Shown here piece after piece: positions 31,049 through 39,866 of a stretch of 64,000 bases of DNA. The notes beneath the pieces are model-generated. The model worked only from the letters and a program-made list of their open reading frames with translations, did not search any database and was not told the origin of the DNA. Numbering within the stretch: position 1 is the first letter of the stretch; every line of letters starts with the position of its first letter. Source of the stretch: Armatimonadota bacterium (GTDB taxonomy: Bacteria; Armatimonadota; HRBIN16); the NCBI GenBank assembly GCA_026003175.1, contig BPGT01000006.1:62001-126000 (forward strand), given 5' to 3'. A program made the translations under genes and the position numbers.

Positions 31049-31462
31049 TTAATCTGTGACCTCTTTCGGTAACCGCGTAAGTACAACGTCCAGCACTTCC
31101 TCTGCGAGCACAATCGCGTACTTCGCATCCTCAAGGCTGGGAGAGAATGGTGCGCCGGGGTAGCGAAATCTCCATGCATACTCTGTGAGTGGGGTGGCTC
31201 TATCAATTGTTCCTGCCATGGATTGGTCGACCTGCAAGCATTGCTCGCCGAGTTCTTCGATGCTATGCGTTTTGCAAAACAGCACGCTGTGCCACGTCAA
31301 AAACGCTTCTAACGCCTTCTCCGCAGCCTGCTGTGCATGGAAAAGTGCCGGAGAGATAAAAGGGTTTTGCGCTGTGAGTGCGTACCGCGCAAGTTCCAGG
31401 TCCTCACGAGCTCTGGCTATCCATTCGCGGGTCTCCTCGACAATTTCCCAATCACGCTGCAT
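31049..31462 (-). CDS. HEPN-domain protein paired with MNT nucleotidyltransferase
   Basis: A 137-residue all-helical protein with the HEPN signature: WIARAREDLELARYAL at the start, then HAQQAAEKALEAFLTWH and KTHSIEELGEQC. HEPN proteins are often ribonuclease toxins of MNT-HEPN systems, but the catalytic Rx4-6H motif is not obvious here, so it may be an inactive or purely binding member. The ATG at 31462 begins the domain; a longer upstream frame lies inside the partner gene. It overlaps the MNT gene by 11 bases and lies just before the ABC importer operon on the same strand. Confidence 0.8.
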   Translation of the reverse strand: MQRDWEIVEETREWIARAREDLELARYALTAQNPFISPALFHAQQAAEKALEAFLTWHSVLFCKTHSIEELGEQCLQVDQSMAGTIDRATPLTEYAWRFRYPGAPFSPSLEDAKYAIVLAEEVLDVVLTRLPKEVTD

Positions 31463-31781
31463 AAAGCAACCTCCCTTCTCGCAGCACGGAAGCCGAAAGA
31501 GAGCTTGCCACTTTGGCGCGTTTCTCAAAGCGGGAGTGATCCCACACAACCACATCTACAGCCACGCCGTTACCTCGGAGAGCCTGATACCCCAATCTAC
31601 TGGTACGTCGCTCCGGAGGTGCATCGTCCGGCACCACTATCAGTAAGTCATAGTCGCTGTTGGCACTCGCCTCCTCTCGTGCTACAGAGCCAAAGAGGTA
31701 TATCCTCTCTGGCTGATATGCCTCTACCAGACGCCGAACTATTTCCGCTAAGATGGGATTGTCATGAGATACCCACACCAT
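31452..31781 (-). CDS. MNT-type nucleotidyltransferase (minimal, HEPN partner)
   Basis: A 109-residue minimal nucleotidyltransferase. LFGSVAREEASANSDYDLLI carries the complete GS-x10-DxD motif and VDVVVWD supplies the third acidic residue, so it looks catalytically intact. In MNT-HEPN modules this protein neutralises the HEPN partner, in known cases by adding AMP groups. The ATG at 31781 is preferred because GGAG lies five bases upstream; an in-frame ATG four codons earlier has no ribosome site. The HEPN gene overlaps its 3' end. Whether this pair is a toxin-antitoxin system or a degraded relic cannot be told from sequence. Confidence 0.8.
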   Translation of the reverse strand: MVWVSHDNPILAEIVRRLVEAYQPERIYLFGSVAREEASANSDYDLLIVVPDDAPPERRTSRLGYQALRGNGVAVDVVVWDHSRFEKRAKVASSLSASVLREGRLLYAA

Positions 31782-31827
31782 GCTCACTCCCATGTACCCG
31801 GGCAGGTTCTTATCTGTTCCCTCTCCA

Positions 31828-32565
31828 TTATATGCCGCTTGCGGCATCCTTGTCCAGCCACCATACCAGTTCCCCATGGTCGGGCAGTACCAGCGCGGCG
31901 GGGAGGGGAGCGTTTTCCACCAGAATCCGTCGCACCGTCTCTGCCTTGTCCGCGTCGGCAACCAGAAAATGCACTGCTTGTGCGGCGTTCAGCACGGGGA
32001 GGGTGAGTGTTAAGCGTACACGTGGCTCCACCGGCGCCTCACCGACGGCAACCCATCGTTTGCGCTCTTGCAGCGCGGATGTGCCCGGGAAAAGCGATGC
32101 GGTATGTCCATCTGCCCCCATCCCCAGCAGGATGAAATCAAAGCGTGGGAACCCTCCGAAAAAGTGTCGGAGTTGTGCCTCATAAAGACGCGCGGCATCG
32201 TCGGGGTCGGGAGCGTCAGTGGGCATCGGGTGTATGTTTTCAAGAGGCAGATTCAGCGGGTCTGTTAGCATCTCGCACACCATACGGAAGTTGCTGGCAG
32301 GGTGGTCGTGCGGGACGTAGCGATCGTCGCTCCAGAAGAGATGCACTCGGTTCCAGTTTATCCGCTGCCGGTATTCGGTCGCCAGCAGATGGTACAGCAA
32401 GCGCGGCGTTTTTCCGCCAGACAGTACAAGGCTAAAGCGAGGCTGCCACTGCAGTATCTGCAACATCCTGTCGGCAAGCGATTCCGCGACAGCATGGGCG
32501 AGCTCTTCCGCAGTGTCGGCTATCCGCAGCACTCGCTCGTTTGTTCGCCTCTCAATGGTCGCCAT
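31828..32565 (-). CDS. pgl: 6-phosphogluconolactonase
   Basis: A 245-residue DevB/SOL-family lactonase that hydrolyses 6-phosphoglucono-delta-lactone, the second step of the oxidative pentose phosphate pathway. Family motifs: [15 protein letters not shown] near residue 45, [21 protein letters not shown], and the active-site segment [16 protein letters not shown] near 145. The length is normal. It overlaps the 3' end of zwf by 46 bases and is the distal gene of a zwf-pgl pair, matching the order of reactions. Start at the ATG directly followed by a short polar head. Confidence 0.94.
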
Positions 32566-34638: not shown

Positions 34639-34714
34639 TGGCGCGCCCGGAGGGACTTGAACCCCCGACCTTGAGGTCCGCAACCTCACGCTCTATCCAC
34701 TGAGCTACGGGCGC
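34639..34714 (-). tRNA. tRNA-Arg, anticodon GCG
   Basis: A full cloverleaf on the minus strand: acceptor GCGCCCG/CGGGCGC, D-arm GCTC/GAGC, anticodon stem TGAGG/CCTCA with loop TTGCGGA, T-arm GGGGG/CCCTC with TTCAAGT, discriminator G, and an encoded CCA at 34641-34639. Loop positions 34-36 read GCG, matching CGC (and CGU) arginine codons. Most bacteria use an ACG (inosine) tRNA here, so GCG is uncommon. The downstream TTTTT may aid termination. Confidence 0.93.
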
Positions 34715-34758: not shown

Positions 34759-35952
34759 TTAACAGCCGCCCAGCACACGCTTCTTCTCTTTTTTGACCGG
34801 CTCGGAGTTCTTGTTCTGCCGAATCAATTCCGGTATCACGCGCTTCGCCTTGTTGCGGAAACGGTAAGTGAACTCCTCCATCATGCTCTGCGGTGGGCGA
34901 GAGGGCTGGAAGTGCAGAATCTGTTCGCGAAAGGCGTTCAGCCCACCTTCCAGAATCTGAATGCGTCGGAAACCCAGCTCGTGGGCAATGGTCGCCACCC
35001 TGCGCTCGGTCAGCTCGTCGTTGGCGACGAAGACGTTGATTTTACCCTTTAGCCTGAGCAGGCGCGACGGCTCCTGTTCGAACAGGTTGTCTACTGTGAA
35101 GGCGTACGATTTGGGCAGCCGCTCACGAGCGATCTCGGTTTCGGGGCGGAAGTCTATCACCTGAATCCGGTCGTCTTCCTCATCCATCAGGCGGAAGGCG
35201 AACTCGTCCACGCTCATCACCTCTATCGGGTAGGAGCGCACCAGCCGTTCGTCCTGCACCAGCTGCAACAGCTCTGCCTTGCGGTCGGTGAAAGAGAAGG
35301 CAGACAGCGCCAGCACGATGCCTGCCGCCACCAGCCCGACGCGCGAGGGCGTCCAGCGTGGAGTTGGTGCCGGTTTACCGTTCACCTTCCGCTCCACGAA
35401 AGACGCAACGCCAAACGCTGCCAGCGCAAACAGCACCATCACGGAGGCGAACAGATTGGGCGGAACGCCTAGCGTCTGCGAGATGCGCGGACTACCAAAA
35501 TACGCTGCCTTATACACCCCTTCAAATAGAGGGTAGCCCTCCGCGAATATCAACACGCCCACCAGCGCGCCACCAATAAGCGCCAGCGCGTCCAGCTTAC
35601 CGATAGCGGCAGCGCAGAAGCTGGTGCCCGGGCAATATCCGCCAACCACGAAGCCCAAACCCATTATCAGTCCGCCGATTATCGCCGACCAGAGGAAGGT
35701 GGGGTTGATGTACACCAGATTCATGTCCAGCAAGCCGAAATGCTCTAGCGCCATCACGCCCACCATCGCCACGATGCCTGCGGTGAAGAAGACGCGCAAC
35801 ACCGTGAAGTCGTAGCCGTAGAACAGTCCCACCAGACGGCGTGAAGATGAGAACCCCGCTTGCTCCAGTATCGCGCCAAACGCGATACCGATGAACAGTG
35901 CGAGGATGTAGTTCAGGTTCTGACTGATAAGGTCCGGTACCAGCGGTCCCAT
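34759..35952 (-). CDS. YeeE/YedE-family sulfur transporter fused to a rhodanese-like domain
   Basis: A 397-residue protein. Residues 1-215 hold seven to nine membrane spans with the YeeE/YedE hallmark VGGYCPGTSFCAAAIGK, whose cysteines guide thiosulfate or persulfide sulfur in TsuA-like proteins. A soluble C-terminal part follows with the rhodanese fold (VIDFRPETEIARERLP). The rhodanese active loop reads VFVANDELTERR, with no cysteine, so sulfurtransfer by that domain is unlikely; it may only bind. The protein ends in a basic tail and GGC. It starts at an ATG preceded by AGGAGG. It is the last gene of the octaheme cytochrome operon. Confidence 0.85.
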   Translation of the reverse strand: MGPLVPDLISQNLNYILALFIGIAFGAILEQAGFSSSRRLVGLFYGYDFTVLRVFFTAGIVAMVGVMALEHFGLLDMNLVYINPTFLWSAIIGGLIMGLGFVVGGYCPGTSFCAAAIGKLDALALIGGALVGVLIFAEGYPLFEGVYKAAYFGSPRISQTLGVPPNLFASVMVLFALAAFGVASFVERKVNGKPAPTPRWTPSRVGLVAAGIVLALSAFSFTDRKAELLQLVQDERLVRSYPIEVMSVDEFAFRLMDEEDDRIQVIDFRPETEIARERLPKSYAFTVDNLFEQEPSRLLRLKGKINVFVANDELTERRVATIAHELGFRRIQILEGGLNAFREQILHFQPSRPPQSMMEEFTYRFRNKAKRVIPELIRQNKNSEPVKKEKKRVLGGC

Positions 35953-35962
35953 CGTGTTCCTC

Positions 35963-36481
35963 CTAAATCCACAGCTTTCTAAAGAAGTAGGCAAAGGCGT
36001 ACGCCCCGGCGAAGATAGCCAGCATTGTGAGGATGCCGCCGGTCGCCATCACCGCCATTCCGCTCAGAGCCGCGCCACTGGTGCATCCCCTGCCCAGCTG
36101 TGAGCCGATGCCCCATAGTATGCCTCCGATAAACGCCGCTATCAGGCGAGTGCGGGAGGTGACTCGTGGTCCCTTTTCAGTAACCAGCTTGATGCGTCCG
36201 GCTACCAGTCCCGACAGGAACGCGCCGATGAGCACGCCCACGATTTCGAACACCAGCCAGTTCTTCAGCGGCCCGCCCGCAGGGTGCTCCACGATGTACT
36301 CCTTGTAGAACTTTGCCGACCGAGCGTGTTGAGGAGCCACCGCTTCCACCCCAGCGACGGTAAAGCTCTTGATAGCCCCACTGGCTCCCAGTCCACGACC
36401 GGTGATATAGATAGTCGTCAGCAACAGCAAACCCAGCAACACGCCTGCCAGGTAGGGGTTCATGTATTTGCTCTCGTTCAT
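35963..36481 (-). CDS. YeeE/YedE-family sulfur transport protein, short form
   Basis: A 172-residue membrane protein with four predicted spans. The family motif GRGCTSGAALSG near residue 133 contains the conserved Cys, and LVFEIVGVLIGAFLSG marks another span. It corresponds to one half of a full YeeE protein, so it probably works with the longer YeeE-rhodanese protein encoded 10 bases downstream, the pair forming a complete channel for thiosulfate-type sulfur (inference). Its start overlaps the cytochrome b stop as ATGA. An alternative ATG seven codons later is possible. Confidence 0.85.
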   Translation of the reverse strand: MNESKYMNPYLAGVLLGLLLLTTIYITGRGLGASGAIKSFTVAGVEAVAPQHARSAKFYKEYIVEHPAGGPLKNWLVFEIVGVLIGAFLSGLVAGRIKLVTEKGPRVTSRTRLIAAFIGGILWGIGSQLGRGCTSGAALSGMAVMATGGILTMLAIFAGAYAFAYFFRKLWI

Positions 36482-37125
36482 GCCTGTTGTCCCTCCAGAG
36501 TACCCGTGCCTGCCGGTTCATCCACCTCCTCGTAGCCGGTAATCATGGCACGGAGGTTCGAGAACACCGTTTCGCCGGTAGTGGTCATGTACAGGTGCAC
36601 TACCAGAAAAGCCATCAGCAGGAACGCGCCCAGCGTATGCGCTAGCGCGATGAACTTCAGCGAACCGATATTGATGGCTTCGATGCCGTAGCGCGTGGGG
36701 TAGCGATAAAACATGTACAGCAACCCCGACACCACCACCAGCGGTATCATCACCACCTTTAAACCAAAGTAGGTGAGCTTCTGTAGCGGGTTCAGCTTGC
36801 TTAGCACCGTCTTTCTGGTAGGGTGGGGTGCATTGCGGAAAATGCCGATCACGTAGTACTCCAGCTGTGCTCGCACGTTCTCCAGCGTCGGCACGTATTG
36901 CCGCCATTCGCCAGTGGTGAAGTGCCAGAAGATAGCGAAGGCGATCAGCGTCAACAGCAGGTAGGCGGCAATATTATGGTAACGCACCGTCTCCCGAAAG
37001 CCGAAGAACGTGTACGCACCGTGTATCTCAAAGCCGGTAAAGGCGAGGAACAGGATAAGCACCGCCTGTGTCCAGTGCCAGAACCGCTCAAAGCCAGTGT
37101 ATATTCGGACGCGCTTTTTGTTCAT
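36478..37125 (-). CDS. Cytochrome b561/b-type membrane subunit (thiosulfate or tetrathionate reductase type)
   Basis: A 215-residue diheme cytochrome b-like protein with four membrane helices. Conserved His residues lie in FERFWHWTQAVLI (first helix), RYHNIAAYLL (second) and ALAHTLGAFLLMAFLVVHLYM (fourth, cited in part), fitting two b hemes. It should pass electrons from quinol to the periplasmic octaheme cytochrome encoded just upstream. The ATG at 37125 shares its A with the upstream TAA stop (TAATG) and is preceded by AAGGAGGG. Family members accompany thiosulfate, tetrathionate or formate oxidoreductases. Confidence 0.86.
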   Translation of the reverse strand: MNKKRVRIYTGFERFWHWTQAVLILFLAFTGFEIHGAYTFFGFRETVRYHNIAAYLLLTLIAFAIFWHFTTGEWRQYVPTLENVRAQLEYYVIGIFRNAPHPTRKTVLSKLNPLQKLTYFGLKVVMIPLVVVSGLLYMFYRYPTRYGIEAINIGSLKFIALAHTLGAFLLMAFLVVHLYMTTTGETVFSNLRAMITGYEEVDEPAGTGTLEGQQA

Positions 37126-38711
37126 TATCGTCCCTCCTTGCGCCGTCTCCATGAGGTAACCACGCGCAAACCGCCATGTACCAGCGCGCCCAGCACTGCG
37201 ACCAGCAACAGCGATTTGCCCAAAACCTCCACTTTTGGCGAGTAGTCTCGTCCGGGAATGTAGAAGTCCCTCAGGTTGGCGATGCGACTGTTGTGGCGCG
37301 TATGGCACTCACTGCATTGTAACGCCTTCTCCTTCGGGGAGACCATGTGGTTGACGGGCCAGTACATGATGGTCTCGATGAAATCCATCTTTCCGCTGAA
37401 GGGCAAGCCGTGCTCTTTCATGCCTACCTCCATTGCCCGTAGCAGGTCGAAGTCTTCCCAGAGCGCACCCTCGCCGTGTCTGGGCGCGAACAATTTGGGC
37501 AACAACAGCATCCGGGTGACAGGGTCATAGAACTGCCGGGTGCGCATGACCTTGACTGGGAAGATTTTGGCGTCGGGGTCGGCGTAAGAGCCTTCAAAGC
37601 GGTTCAGGATGACGGGTTGTGTGGGGTCTTCGATACGGTCGCCCGGCAGGTAGTGGTGAGCCGTGCCGTTGAACCATACATACTCCGGTTTCAGGTTCTT
37701 GCCCCAGCGGAAAGTACCTTTCTTGGACATGTAGAGGATGTTGCCCTCGGCATCCTTCTCTTCATACGGCTTGCCATTCCGTAGTTTGCCTGCGGTAGAC
37801 CAGTCCCAGTAGATTTTGGTGGCGTTCACTTTGGCGTAGACCGGGATGTGACATGTCTGGCATGCCACTTTCAGTGTGTGTTCGTTGAGCAGGTCGTCGT
37901 TGTGAGGGGTGTTGCCATGACATTGCTCACAGGTAACGCGGTTGCGGTTCATGGACGAGAGCGAATAAAGCTGACCGCGGATGTTGTGCTTCTCAGTGAC
38001 ATGGCAGTCCACGCACTGCATGTTCGCCCCGTCCACCGCCATGTGCACGTCTACGTCGCGCGTGGGTTCGAACATGGCTTCCTCGAGGTCGCCGTGTTTG
38101 ACGTTGTTGCCGCCGCCTCCGTAGAAGTGGCACACACCGCAGTTACTGCGTGCAGGGCGTCCCACACTTTGCGCCACCTTCGTCAGGTTGACCGTTGGTG
38201 AGGGTGCGCCACCCTTGTTCTGCGCTTTGGCGTAAGTGCCTGTGCCATCATGGCAAACGAGGCAGTCCACATTGCGCGGATCGTTGAAATCGAAGGTTTT
38301 AACCGACTCCATGCCGTATCCCACATGGCATTTGGCGCAAGCGAGCTCGTTACCCTCGGCGGCAAGACAGAAGTTGTTGACCGCGTTCTTCTTGCCCAGA
38401 TACACCACGCCACGCCCTTTCACATACTCCTCACGCTCCCAGTTCCAGTGATTCGAGCGCATCACCTCGGTATGCCGACCGTTGTGGCACTCGATGCACG
38501 CTGAAGTCACCTCCTGCGGTCGGGCGAAGGCGCGTTGTAGCTGCGGGAATTTGCTATGGTCTACGGACGGCGTCCGTTTCTTTGCGTATTGCTCTTTCAG
38601 CTGATCTAGCGGGGTAGGGGGCAGTTCCTTCGGCGTCAATGCGGAGACCGCCGCCACCGCCAGCGCTATCGTTGCAAGAACGGGTATCGCCTGTTTCATT
38701 TCCTTCACCAT
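37125..38711 (-). CDS. Octaheme c-type cytochrome, tetrathionate reductase (OTR) family
   Basis: A 528-residue exported multiheme protein. The start is a signal peptide (hydrophobic residues 9-24). Eight CxxCH motifs are present: CIECH (72-76), CAKCH, CLVCH, CGVCH, CVDCH, CEQCH, CQTCH and CSECH, matching the octaheme tetrathionate reductase family, which can also reduce nitrite or hydroxylamine in vitro. A C-terminal membrane helix (LLLVAVLGALVHGGL) anchors it to the membrane. ATG at 38711 or 38699 are both possible; the inner one follows GAAGGAA closely. It is the first gene of a four-gene operon with cytochrome b and two YeeE proteins, suggesting sulfur-compound respiration. Confidence 0.88.
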   Translation of the reverse strand: MVKEMKQAIPVLATIALAVAAVSALTPKELPPTPLDQLKEQYAKKRTPSVDHSKFPQLQRAFARPQEVTSACIECHNGRHTEVMRSNHWNWEREEYVKGRGVVYLGKKNAVNNFCLAAEGNELACAKCHVGYGMESVKTFDFNDPRNVDCLVCHDGTGTYAKAQNKGGAPSPTVNLTKVAQSVGRPARSNCGVCHFYGGGGNNVKHGDLEEAMFEPTRDVDVHMAVDGANMQCVDCHVTEKHNIRGQLYSLSSMNRNRVTCEQCHGNTPHNDDLLNEHTLKVACQTCHIPVYAKVNATKIYWDWSTAGKLRNGKPYEEKDAEGNILYMSKKGTFRWGKNLKPEYVWFNGTAHHYLPGDRIEDPTQPVILNRFEGSYADPDAKIFPVKVMRTRQFYDPVTRMLLLPKLFAPRHGEGALWEDFDLLRAMEVGMKEHGLPFSGKMDFIETIMYWPVNHMVSPKEKALQCSECHTRHNSRIANLRDFYIPGRDYSPKVEVLGKSLLLVAVLGALVHGGLRVVTSWRRRKEGR

Positions 38712-38837: not shown

Positions 38838-39866
38838 ATGTCTACAAAACCGCTCAGGGTGCTTTACCTACCAAAGCCCGACCACACTGAGCTGGCGTTC
38901 ACACCTTACTGGTGGAAGCGTCTCTGTGGCCATGCGGAGGTGGTGGAATGGGATCATACGGTGTCCTGCACTTCCGAGAACCTAGCGGAGCGCATCGGCG
39001 AGTTCGAAGTACTGGTGACCGCTTGGGGCAGTCCGCGTTTGACAGATGATGTACTGCAAAAGGCGAGGAGGCTTCGGCTGATTGCCCATGCTGCTGGTTC
39101 GGTAAAGTTCATGCTTTCGCAGCAGGCGGTGCAACAACACCTCCTCCCGCGCGGCATCCGTGTTTTCAGCGGAAACGGTGCGATTGCGCTCAACGTTGCC
39201 GAAGCCACCGTGGGCATGATGATTATGGGCGTGCGCCGCTGGATAGACCACGTTCTCGCCTACCGCGAGCGCGGCGTCTGGCGCGACCCGGTTATTCCGC
39301 TGAACGGGCAATATCTCCTCGGCGCGACAGTGGGGCTGGTCTCCTGCAGCACGGTAGCGAGGGAGGTCATCCGCTTGCTTCGCCCCTTCCGTACTCGCAT
39401 TCTGGTTTACGACCCGTTCCTGCCGCTGCCCGAGGCGCGGCGCATGCGCCTGAAGCCGGTAGATTTGGAGACGCTCTTCCGCGAGTCGCACATTGTGAGT
39501 GTGCATACACCTCTTCTGCCCGAAACGGTAGGGTTAATTCGTGGAGAACATCTGCGCTTGCTTCGCGACAACAGCGTGCTGGTGAACACCAGCCGGGGCA
39601 AGGTGATCGAGCATGATGCACTGATTGAAGAGGCACGGACAGGACGTTTCGTGGCGGTGCTGGATGTGACTGACCCTGAGCCGCTTCCTCCCGACCATCC
39701 TCTACGTGAGATGCCCAATGTGATTATCCTGCCGCATATCGCCGGTGCTGGATTTTATGGTTACCACCGCATCGGCGAACTGCTGGTGAAGGCGGTAGAA
39801 GCAACCGCGAAAGGGGCACCTTTCGAAGGAGAAGTGCGGCTGGATCGGTACGAGCGAATAGCCTAA
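38838..39866 (+). CDS. D-2-hydroxyacid dehydrogenase family protein
   Basis: About 342 residues with the D-2-hydroxyacid dehydrogenase layout. The catalytic triad is intact: Arg in VNTSRGKVIEHDAL, Glu in VTDPEPLPPDHPL and His in LPHIAGAGFYGY. The NAD loop is atypical: where GxGxxG is expected, the sequence reads GLVSCSTVAREV, so coenzyme binding or phosphate contacts may differ. The ATG at 38838 is chosen because GTGGAGG lies seven bases upstream; the open frame before it is unconvincing. It diverges from the octaheme operon. The substrate (glyoxylate, phosphoglycerate or sugar acid) is unknown. Confidence 0.82.
   Translation: MSTKPLRVLYLPKPDHTELAFTPYWWKRLCGHAEVVEWDHTVSCTSENLAERIGEFEVLVTAWGSPRLTDDVLQKARRLRLIAHAAGSVKFMLSQQAVQQHLLPRGIRVFSGNGAIALNVAEATVGMMIMGVRRWIDHVLAYRERGVWRDPVIPLNGQYLLGATVGLVSCSTVAREVIRLLRPFRTRILVYDPFLPLPEARRMRLKPVDLETLFRESHIVSVHTPLLPETVGLIRGEHLRLLRDNSVLVNTSRGKVIEHDALIEEARTGRFVAVLDVTDPEPLPPDHPLREMPNVIILPHIAGAGFYGYHRIGELLVKAVEATAKGAPFEGEVRLDRYERIA

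Follow-up and report, generated by a model that had tools for sequence, protein, structure and literature searches.

What is the role of an octaheme tetrathionate reductase (OTR)-like cytochrome that is encoded in a single operon with a cytochrome b and two YeeE-type proteins (YeeE1 and YeeE2)? This arrangement is found in a 64,000-nucleotide stretch of an Armatimonadota genome (hereafter the window: contig BPGT01000006.1 of assembly GCA_026003175.1, positions 62,001–126,000 of the forward strand). The host genome is 4.1 Mb in size and 97% complete, its nearest named relatives being bacterium HR16 and a Chthonomonadia metagenome-assembled genome (MAG). The question is of wider relevance, given that sulfur exchange between periplasmic sulfur-reducing enzymes and the cytoplasm is poorly understood, while the physiological substrate of OTR (tetrathionate or nitrite) is disputed. 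Our analysis points to one membrane-bound respiratory sulfur module, in which a tethered swinging arm may relay sulfur between reductase and transporter, a reading to which we assign a probability of roughly 0.55.

A preliminary description of this locus had considered the four genes a coherent module, and their grouping accidental should YeeE genes prove unlinked to the cytochrome in related genomes. A scan of 85,000 species genomes yielded 267 OTR relatives, the best 80 of which were examined together with loci from the genus, giving 87 loci (three of these are the same record fetched twice). Gene calls throughout are open reading frames, and most loci compared come from MAGs. The four genes occur together in 83 of the 87 loci, distributed over many phyla, with the order otr-cytB-YeeE1-YeeE2 in 82 (the exception, L098, has only a partial YeeE2 frame at the contig end, listed before YeeE1), and the remaining four loci are truncated by contig ends. 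Within the genus, the order is identical in all six genomes for which the region is complete.

An unbiased sample of 245 genomes, drawn evenly from the Ignavibacteria class, contains 86 OTR genes. A full-length YeeE2 is located ~1.3 kb downstream on the same strand for 57 of these, a variant YeeE2 is associated with 9, and neither with 20. Full-length YeeE2 is present in 61 genomes, and 58 of these also contain an OTR scoring over the cut-off (Fisher p ~7e-34, uncorrected for kinship); an OTR fragment lies beside YeeE2 in two of the other three, and the third case is located near a contig start. Both the 83 four-gene loci and the Ignavibacteria sample lead us to reject an accidental grouping. 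Genome neighbourhoods thus show the linkage by a wide margin, and its conservation bears out the notion of a coherent module that joins a quinol-linked octaheme reductase to YeeE proteins.

The linkage does not extend to the OTR family as a whole. Other OTR types lack the pair nearby, and it was not found near the plasmid OTRs of Paracoccus and Photobacterium or near a shorter Ignavibacteria OTR type. The viral collection searched contained no OTR relatives. A variant module was observed in L174 and L175, with an OTR (8 hemes), YeeE1, a YeeE2 ending in KKRSGGLCS, a membrane cytochrome with 8–9 hemes in place of cytochrome b, and a MarR regulator. In a quick tree, the clade containing the window OTR is placed inside an Ignavibacteria-dominated clade (support 98), apart from another Armatimonadota copy (G182), a position that suggests horizontal transfer of the operon. 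The window OTR itself matches the Shewanella oneidensis enzyme (PDB 1sp3; E 1.3e-126, about 49% identity), and carries an N-terminal signal/anchor as well as a C-terminal transmembrane anchor. All 16 heme cysteines are present in each of the 81 aligned proteins.

The two YeeE proteins had been taken to be two transporters in the preliminary description, a view that has to be revised. YeeE1 and YeeE2 match complementary regions of the PF04143 profile (positions 175–309 and 12–189, respectively), and two independent YeeE transporters were rejected on this basis. YeeE1 represents the C-terminal half, with C133 aligned to Cys293 of StYeeE and kept in 84/84 aligned proteins, while YeeE2 represents the N-terminal half, with C107 aligned to Cys91 and kept in 78/78; an equivalent of StYeeE Cys22 is absent from both. 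In the TsuA/YeeE type, one chain comprises nine helices and contains Cys22, Cys91 and Cys293, a description that neither half-protein fits, and scores with the TsuA models, whose cut-offs are 400 and 645 bits, do not exceed 47 bits. Half-size YeeE proteins have been described as PmpA and PmpB, corresponding to C- and N-terminal halves with one conserved cysteine each, and proposed to form a heterodimer (PMC11582611). The window proteins agree with the PmpAB type in both respects, but are larger than the about 130 residues and four helices typical of each partner: YeeE1 has 172 residues, and YeeE2 has 397, with six predicted helices and a rhodanese domain.

The host genome has no Sulf_transp genes besides YeeE1 and YeeE2, and a single pair is likewise found in five of six other genomes searched. 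In the genus member G007 (L157:222-1838), both occur in one reading frame with the YeeE2 start lost, possibly a natural fusion or an assembly deletion. The PmpA/PmpB-like relation, the lack of other Sulf_transp genes in the genome and the fused frame in a relative argue that YeeE1 and YeeE2 most likely constitute one transporter, as judged from sequence. The structure model of YeeE1 (predicted local distance difference test, pLDDT, of 61) is too weak to be interpreted alone. The YeeE2 gene of HRbin16 (L016/L053:3053-4305) is broken into two frames near residue 252, probably by a sequencing frameshift.

Three features of YeeE2 beyond its Sulf_transp part had been overlooked: one additional helix, a rhodanese-like domain and a KRVLGGC end. 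The PF00581 match scores 29.8 bits (cut-off 22.2), AlphaFold predicts the rhodanese fold confidently (pLDDT mostly 84–93) with a disordered tail, and Foldseek matches the predicted fold to solved rhodaneses. The active-site loop reads VFVANDEL and thus has no cysteine, a feature it has in common with 130 of 132 relatives, and a catalytically active rhodanese was rejected on this basis. The two other rhodanese proteins of the host retain the loop motifs CRSGKRS and CRIGERS. The lost loop cysteine is matched by a cysteine in the tail, which is invariant in 78 aligned relatives and the very last residue in 77. More broadly, 146 of 151 distinct rhodanese-bearing proteins have a cysteine among their last four residues, compared with 27 of 686 neighbouring proteins (4%), and the tails are rich in Lys/Arg (5.4 per 20 residues, as against 2.9). 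Of the five proteins without a tail cysteine, one (L198) is a module member, and the other four are rhodaneses that are unlinked or of a different kind. Averaged loop charges (positive-inside) give YeeE2 six helices with both ends outside, placing the rhodanese domain and tail probably in the periplasm. Where relatives have the rhodanese as a separate protein, it opens with a signal/anchor sequence and its C-terminus is again a cysteine, in the form GGGC.

The YeeE/rhodanese unit has a second reductase partner. In Ignavibacteria, Acidobacteriota, Myxococcota-like and other Armatimonadota genomes, a molybdoenzyme operon that also encodes Fer4 and NrfD subunits is followed by a distant relative of YeeE2. 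The A subunit matches Thermus thermophilus PsrA (2vpw) with E 3e-228, and scores 536 bits with the PhsA model, under the cut-off of 694. The YeeE1-YeeE2-rhodanese unit is located behind PsrABC-type enzymes in >40 loci, with the rhodanese following YeeE1-YeeE2 either fused or as a separate protein, and with tails such as KKKKKEGC, KKAGGC and GGGGCGG. An Acidobacteriota contig (L232, G1051:C41) carries a Psr-type and an OTR-type module in tandem, and both have a YeeE pair and a cysteine-tailed rhodanese of their own. At L240:7985-9463, a YeeE1-YeeE2 pair precedes an unclassified 492-residue open reading frame ending in GSGC, with no recognised reductase nearby.

Many OTR modules have a MerR, MarR or ArsR protein directly upstream, and relatives of these regulators also accompany the Psr modules. 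The MerR regulator has nine conserved cysteines (L065:5891-6337 and 23 further loci), possibly forming a metal- or sulfur-sensing domain, while the MarR regulator has one invariant and one frequent cysteine. The ArsR cysteines are spaced by 66 in L097 and L105 (C29/C95 and C32/C98) and by 65 in L083 and L102 (four copies). A spacing of 66 is found in sHdrR (Cys50/Cys116), a sulfane-sulfur sensor in a group that also includes BigR and SqrR (PMC12423496). With the BigR model, the ArsR proteins score 75 bits, below the equivalog cut-off of 155. Among the loci examined, no further gene family recurs next to the core beyond a minority of loci. A sulfur function of the module, as opposed to one in nitrite reduction, is supported by the occurrence of the YeeE/rhodanese unit behind Psr/Phs-type molybdoenzymes, and further by the two-cysteine BigR/SqrR-like regulators that accompany some copies, and we regard it as the predicted role. 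Reduction of a sulfur oxyanion and import of the sulfur produced, the functions suggested in the preliminary description, would be candidates, with tetrathionate a possible substrate.

In the mechanism we propose, cytochrome b would oxidise menaquinol and pass electrons to a periplasmic, membrane-anchored octaheme OTR, as expected from the respective families. The substrate of OTR would be an inorganic sulfur compound with an S–S bond to be cleaved, be it tetrathionate, thiosulfate, polysulfide or the sulfur that the carrier tail has bound. YeeE1 and YeeE2, identified as halves with a cysteine each, would assemble into a split YeeE-type channel. Conservation of the tail suggests that the sulfur-carrying role moved from the lost rhodanese loop cysteine to the cysteine at the end of the arm. 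This flexible, positively charged C-terminal arm would swing back and forth between the active site of OTR and the channel mouth on the periplasmic side, handing sulfur across; it could either carry the OTR product into the channel, or deliver bound sulfur to OTR in the fashion of Sud to Psr. The unit appears exchangeable, such that in relatives YeeE1-YeeE2-pseudo-rhodanese-Cys would serve the Psr/Phs-type molybdoenzyme instead.

Several observations weigh against such a relay. Shewanella OTR also reduces nitrite and hydroxylamine (PMC4484225), and Caldithrix abyssi possesses an OTR, yet growth experiments did not confirm the predicted sulfur, thiosulfate and tetrathionate respiration (PMC5317091). 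The Armatimonadota genome G179 has a YeeE pair with a GGC tail and no OTR. AlphaFold models the membrane parts with low confidence, and the topology therefore rests on charge distribution and the unfused relatives. Finally, no TusA-family (PF01206) match was detected in the 97% complete host genome, whereas 11 of 14 control genomes have one. This makes import of sulfur to the usual cytoplasmic acceptor doubtful in this host, so that the YeeE-YeeD route cannot simply be assumed, and direct import into TusA, which we also considered, was given less weight.

The missing TusA would be consistent with an arm that only delivers: the pseudo-rhodanese would gather periplasmic sulfane sulfur (polysulfide, tetrathionate) and feed it to the reductase, with the split YeeE mainly a membrane anchor, or an exporter/importer of a side product, as opposed to the destination of the sulfur. 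The position of the unit behind two unrelated reductases can be read in the same way, and a periplasmic carrier, Sud, is known to serve the polysulfide reductase Psr in Wolinella (PMC2628731). However, the invariance of C133 and C107 implies an active sulfur path through YeeE, and we consider delivery alone to be unlikely, although a serious contender. We attach a distinctly lower likelihood to OTR acting as a nitrite/hydroxylamine reductase with the YeeE pair as an unrelated sulfur-assimilation passenger: both activities are those of the Shewanella enzyme, and the Paracoccus and Photobacterium plasmid OTRs do without the pair, but the OTR-YeeE linkage is near-obligatory in this clade, and both the YeeE/rhodanese unit and the regulator families also sit with Psr/Phs-type sulfur enzymes. 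Cytochromes of the c- and b-type can run either way. Even so, an oxidative direction, in which sulfur compounds would feed the quinone pool with electrons via OTR and cytochrome b while YeeE moved sulfur for oxidation or storage, is improbable despite the action of YeeE-like SoxT proteins in sulfur oxidizers (PMC11582611), as the partners are from reductase families (OTR, Psr/Phs) and no recurrent sulfur-oxidation genes are present among the conserved neighbours in the loci examined.

The swinging-arm relay raises a broader proposal, which we make tentatively and rate at slightly under even odds: the split YeeE with a cysteine-tailed, loop-cysteine-less rhodanese may represent a periplasmic sulfur-carrier unit of a general kind, not previously described. 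The unit would join with two or more unrelated reductases of sulfur respiration (OTR-cytochrome b and Psr/Phs-type), and link this respiration with the passage of sulfur through the membrane. Novelty was judged against the open-access literature and the family databases used; the open-access literature, to which the search was confined (subscription papers lay outside it), yielded no description of OTR with YeeE, YeeE with rhodanese, or Psr with YeeE and rhodanese. That OTR and Psr/Phs-type enzymes have a conserved unit in common indicates that these OTRs act on sulfur, and the C-terminal cysteine provides a specific, mutable residue with which a swinging-arm relay of sulfur can be probed. As many uncultured lineages carry the unit (Ignavibacteria, Kapabacteria, Acidobacteriota, Armatimonadota, Myxococcota and Elusimicrobia), it may revise their predicted sulfur metabolism.

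The features of the operon and its surroundings are listed below. The gene coupling given in the preliminary description for the four minus-strand genes is confirmed: the stop codon of OTR and the ATG of cytochrome b share TAATG, cytochrome b and YeeE1 overlap by ATGA, and a 10-base gap precedes YeeE2. The tRNA gene directly downstream of the operon is found at the same place in the genus members L017, L018 and L019. A relative of the divergently oriented dehydrogenase also adjoins the operon in L055. Further away, a pair of overlapping open reading frames resembles, when read by eye, a HEPN-domain protein and a minimal nucleotidyltransferase (MNT), and is likely a HEPN/MNT toxin-antitoxin pair.

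Table 1. Positions of the operon features and neighbouring genes within the window.
Feature	Position	Strand	Description
OTR	37125-38711	(-)	528 aa; eight CXXCH; TIGR04315, 595 bits (cut-off 375)
Cytochrome b	36478-37125	(-)	215 aa; PF01292; b561-type, PhsC/FdnI-like; predicted quinol oxidase feeding OTR
YeeE1	35963-36481	(-)	172 aa; PF04143; C-terminal-half YeeE protein, PmpA-like
YeeE1/YeeE2 10-base gap	35953-35962	(-)	AGGAGG ribosome-binding site overlapping the YeeE1 stop codon
YeeE2	34759-35952	(-)	397 aa; PF04143 + PF00581; N-terminal half, PmpB-like, plus central helix
YeeE2 rhodanese-like domain	34924-35178	(-)	aa 259-343; no catalytic-loop cysteine (VFVANDELTERR); predicted periplasmic
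YeeE2 terminal Gly-Gly-Cys	34762-34770	(-)	aa 395-397; after Lys/Arg-rich predicted disordered linker (KKEKKRVLGGC-COOH)
tRNA-Arg(gcg)	34639-34714	(-)	
D-2-hydroxyacid dehydrogenase	38838-39866	(+)	
Two overlapping open reading frames	31049-31961	(-)	

The window OTR has the eight CXXCH hemes of the S. oneidensis enzyme, and its N112, C115 and K205 are the equivalents of Asn61, Cys64 and Lys153, all conserved. It differs by the additional C-terminal membrane anchor, by an Asn at the position of Asp150, and by being encoded with a cytochrome b and a split YeeE/pseudo-rhodanese. In the S. oneidensis OTR structure, Lys153 is the distal ligand of the catalytic heme. An OTR adjoining a cytochrome b is also seen in the clusters of Ignavibacteriae Ch128a and Thermosulfurimonas dismutans (PMC7509429, PMC4911364), although the passages on these clusters mention no YeeE pair, rhodanese domain or cysteine tail. 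YeeE/TsuA with YeeD/TsuB (PDB 8k1r; PMC11073785) shares with the window transporter the Sulf_transp fold family and the Cys91 and Cys293 equivalents. In contrast, the window transporter is split in two and lacks the Cys22 equivalent, while a tailed domain, predicted to be periplasmic, replaces the cytoplasmic TusA domain, no TusA-type partner having been found in the genome. The separate halves with one conserved cysteine each are those of PmpA/PmpB (PMC11582611), to which YeeE2 adds a central helix, one more helix, the rhodanese-like domain and the GGC tail.

SoxY and Sud would be functional analogies only. SoxY is a periplasmic sulfur carrier with a glycine-flanked cysteine on a C-terminal GGCGG arm (PMC6067878). 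YeeE2 has no SoxY Pfam match and ends in GGC only, with GGCG or GGCGG in some relatives, and what bears its arm is a transporter-tethered, cysteine-less rhodanese domain. Sud is a rhodanese-type periplasmic protein that uses its rhodanese-loop cysteine. The likeness to Sud extends to the location of the relatives' unit near Psr-type reductases, whereas YeeE2 has lost the loop cysteine, gained one in the tail, and carries its domain tethered to the membrane.

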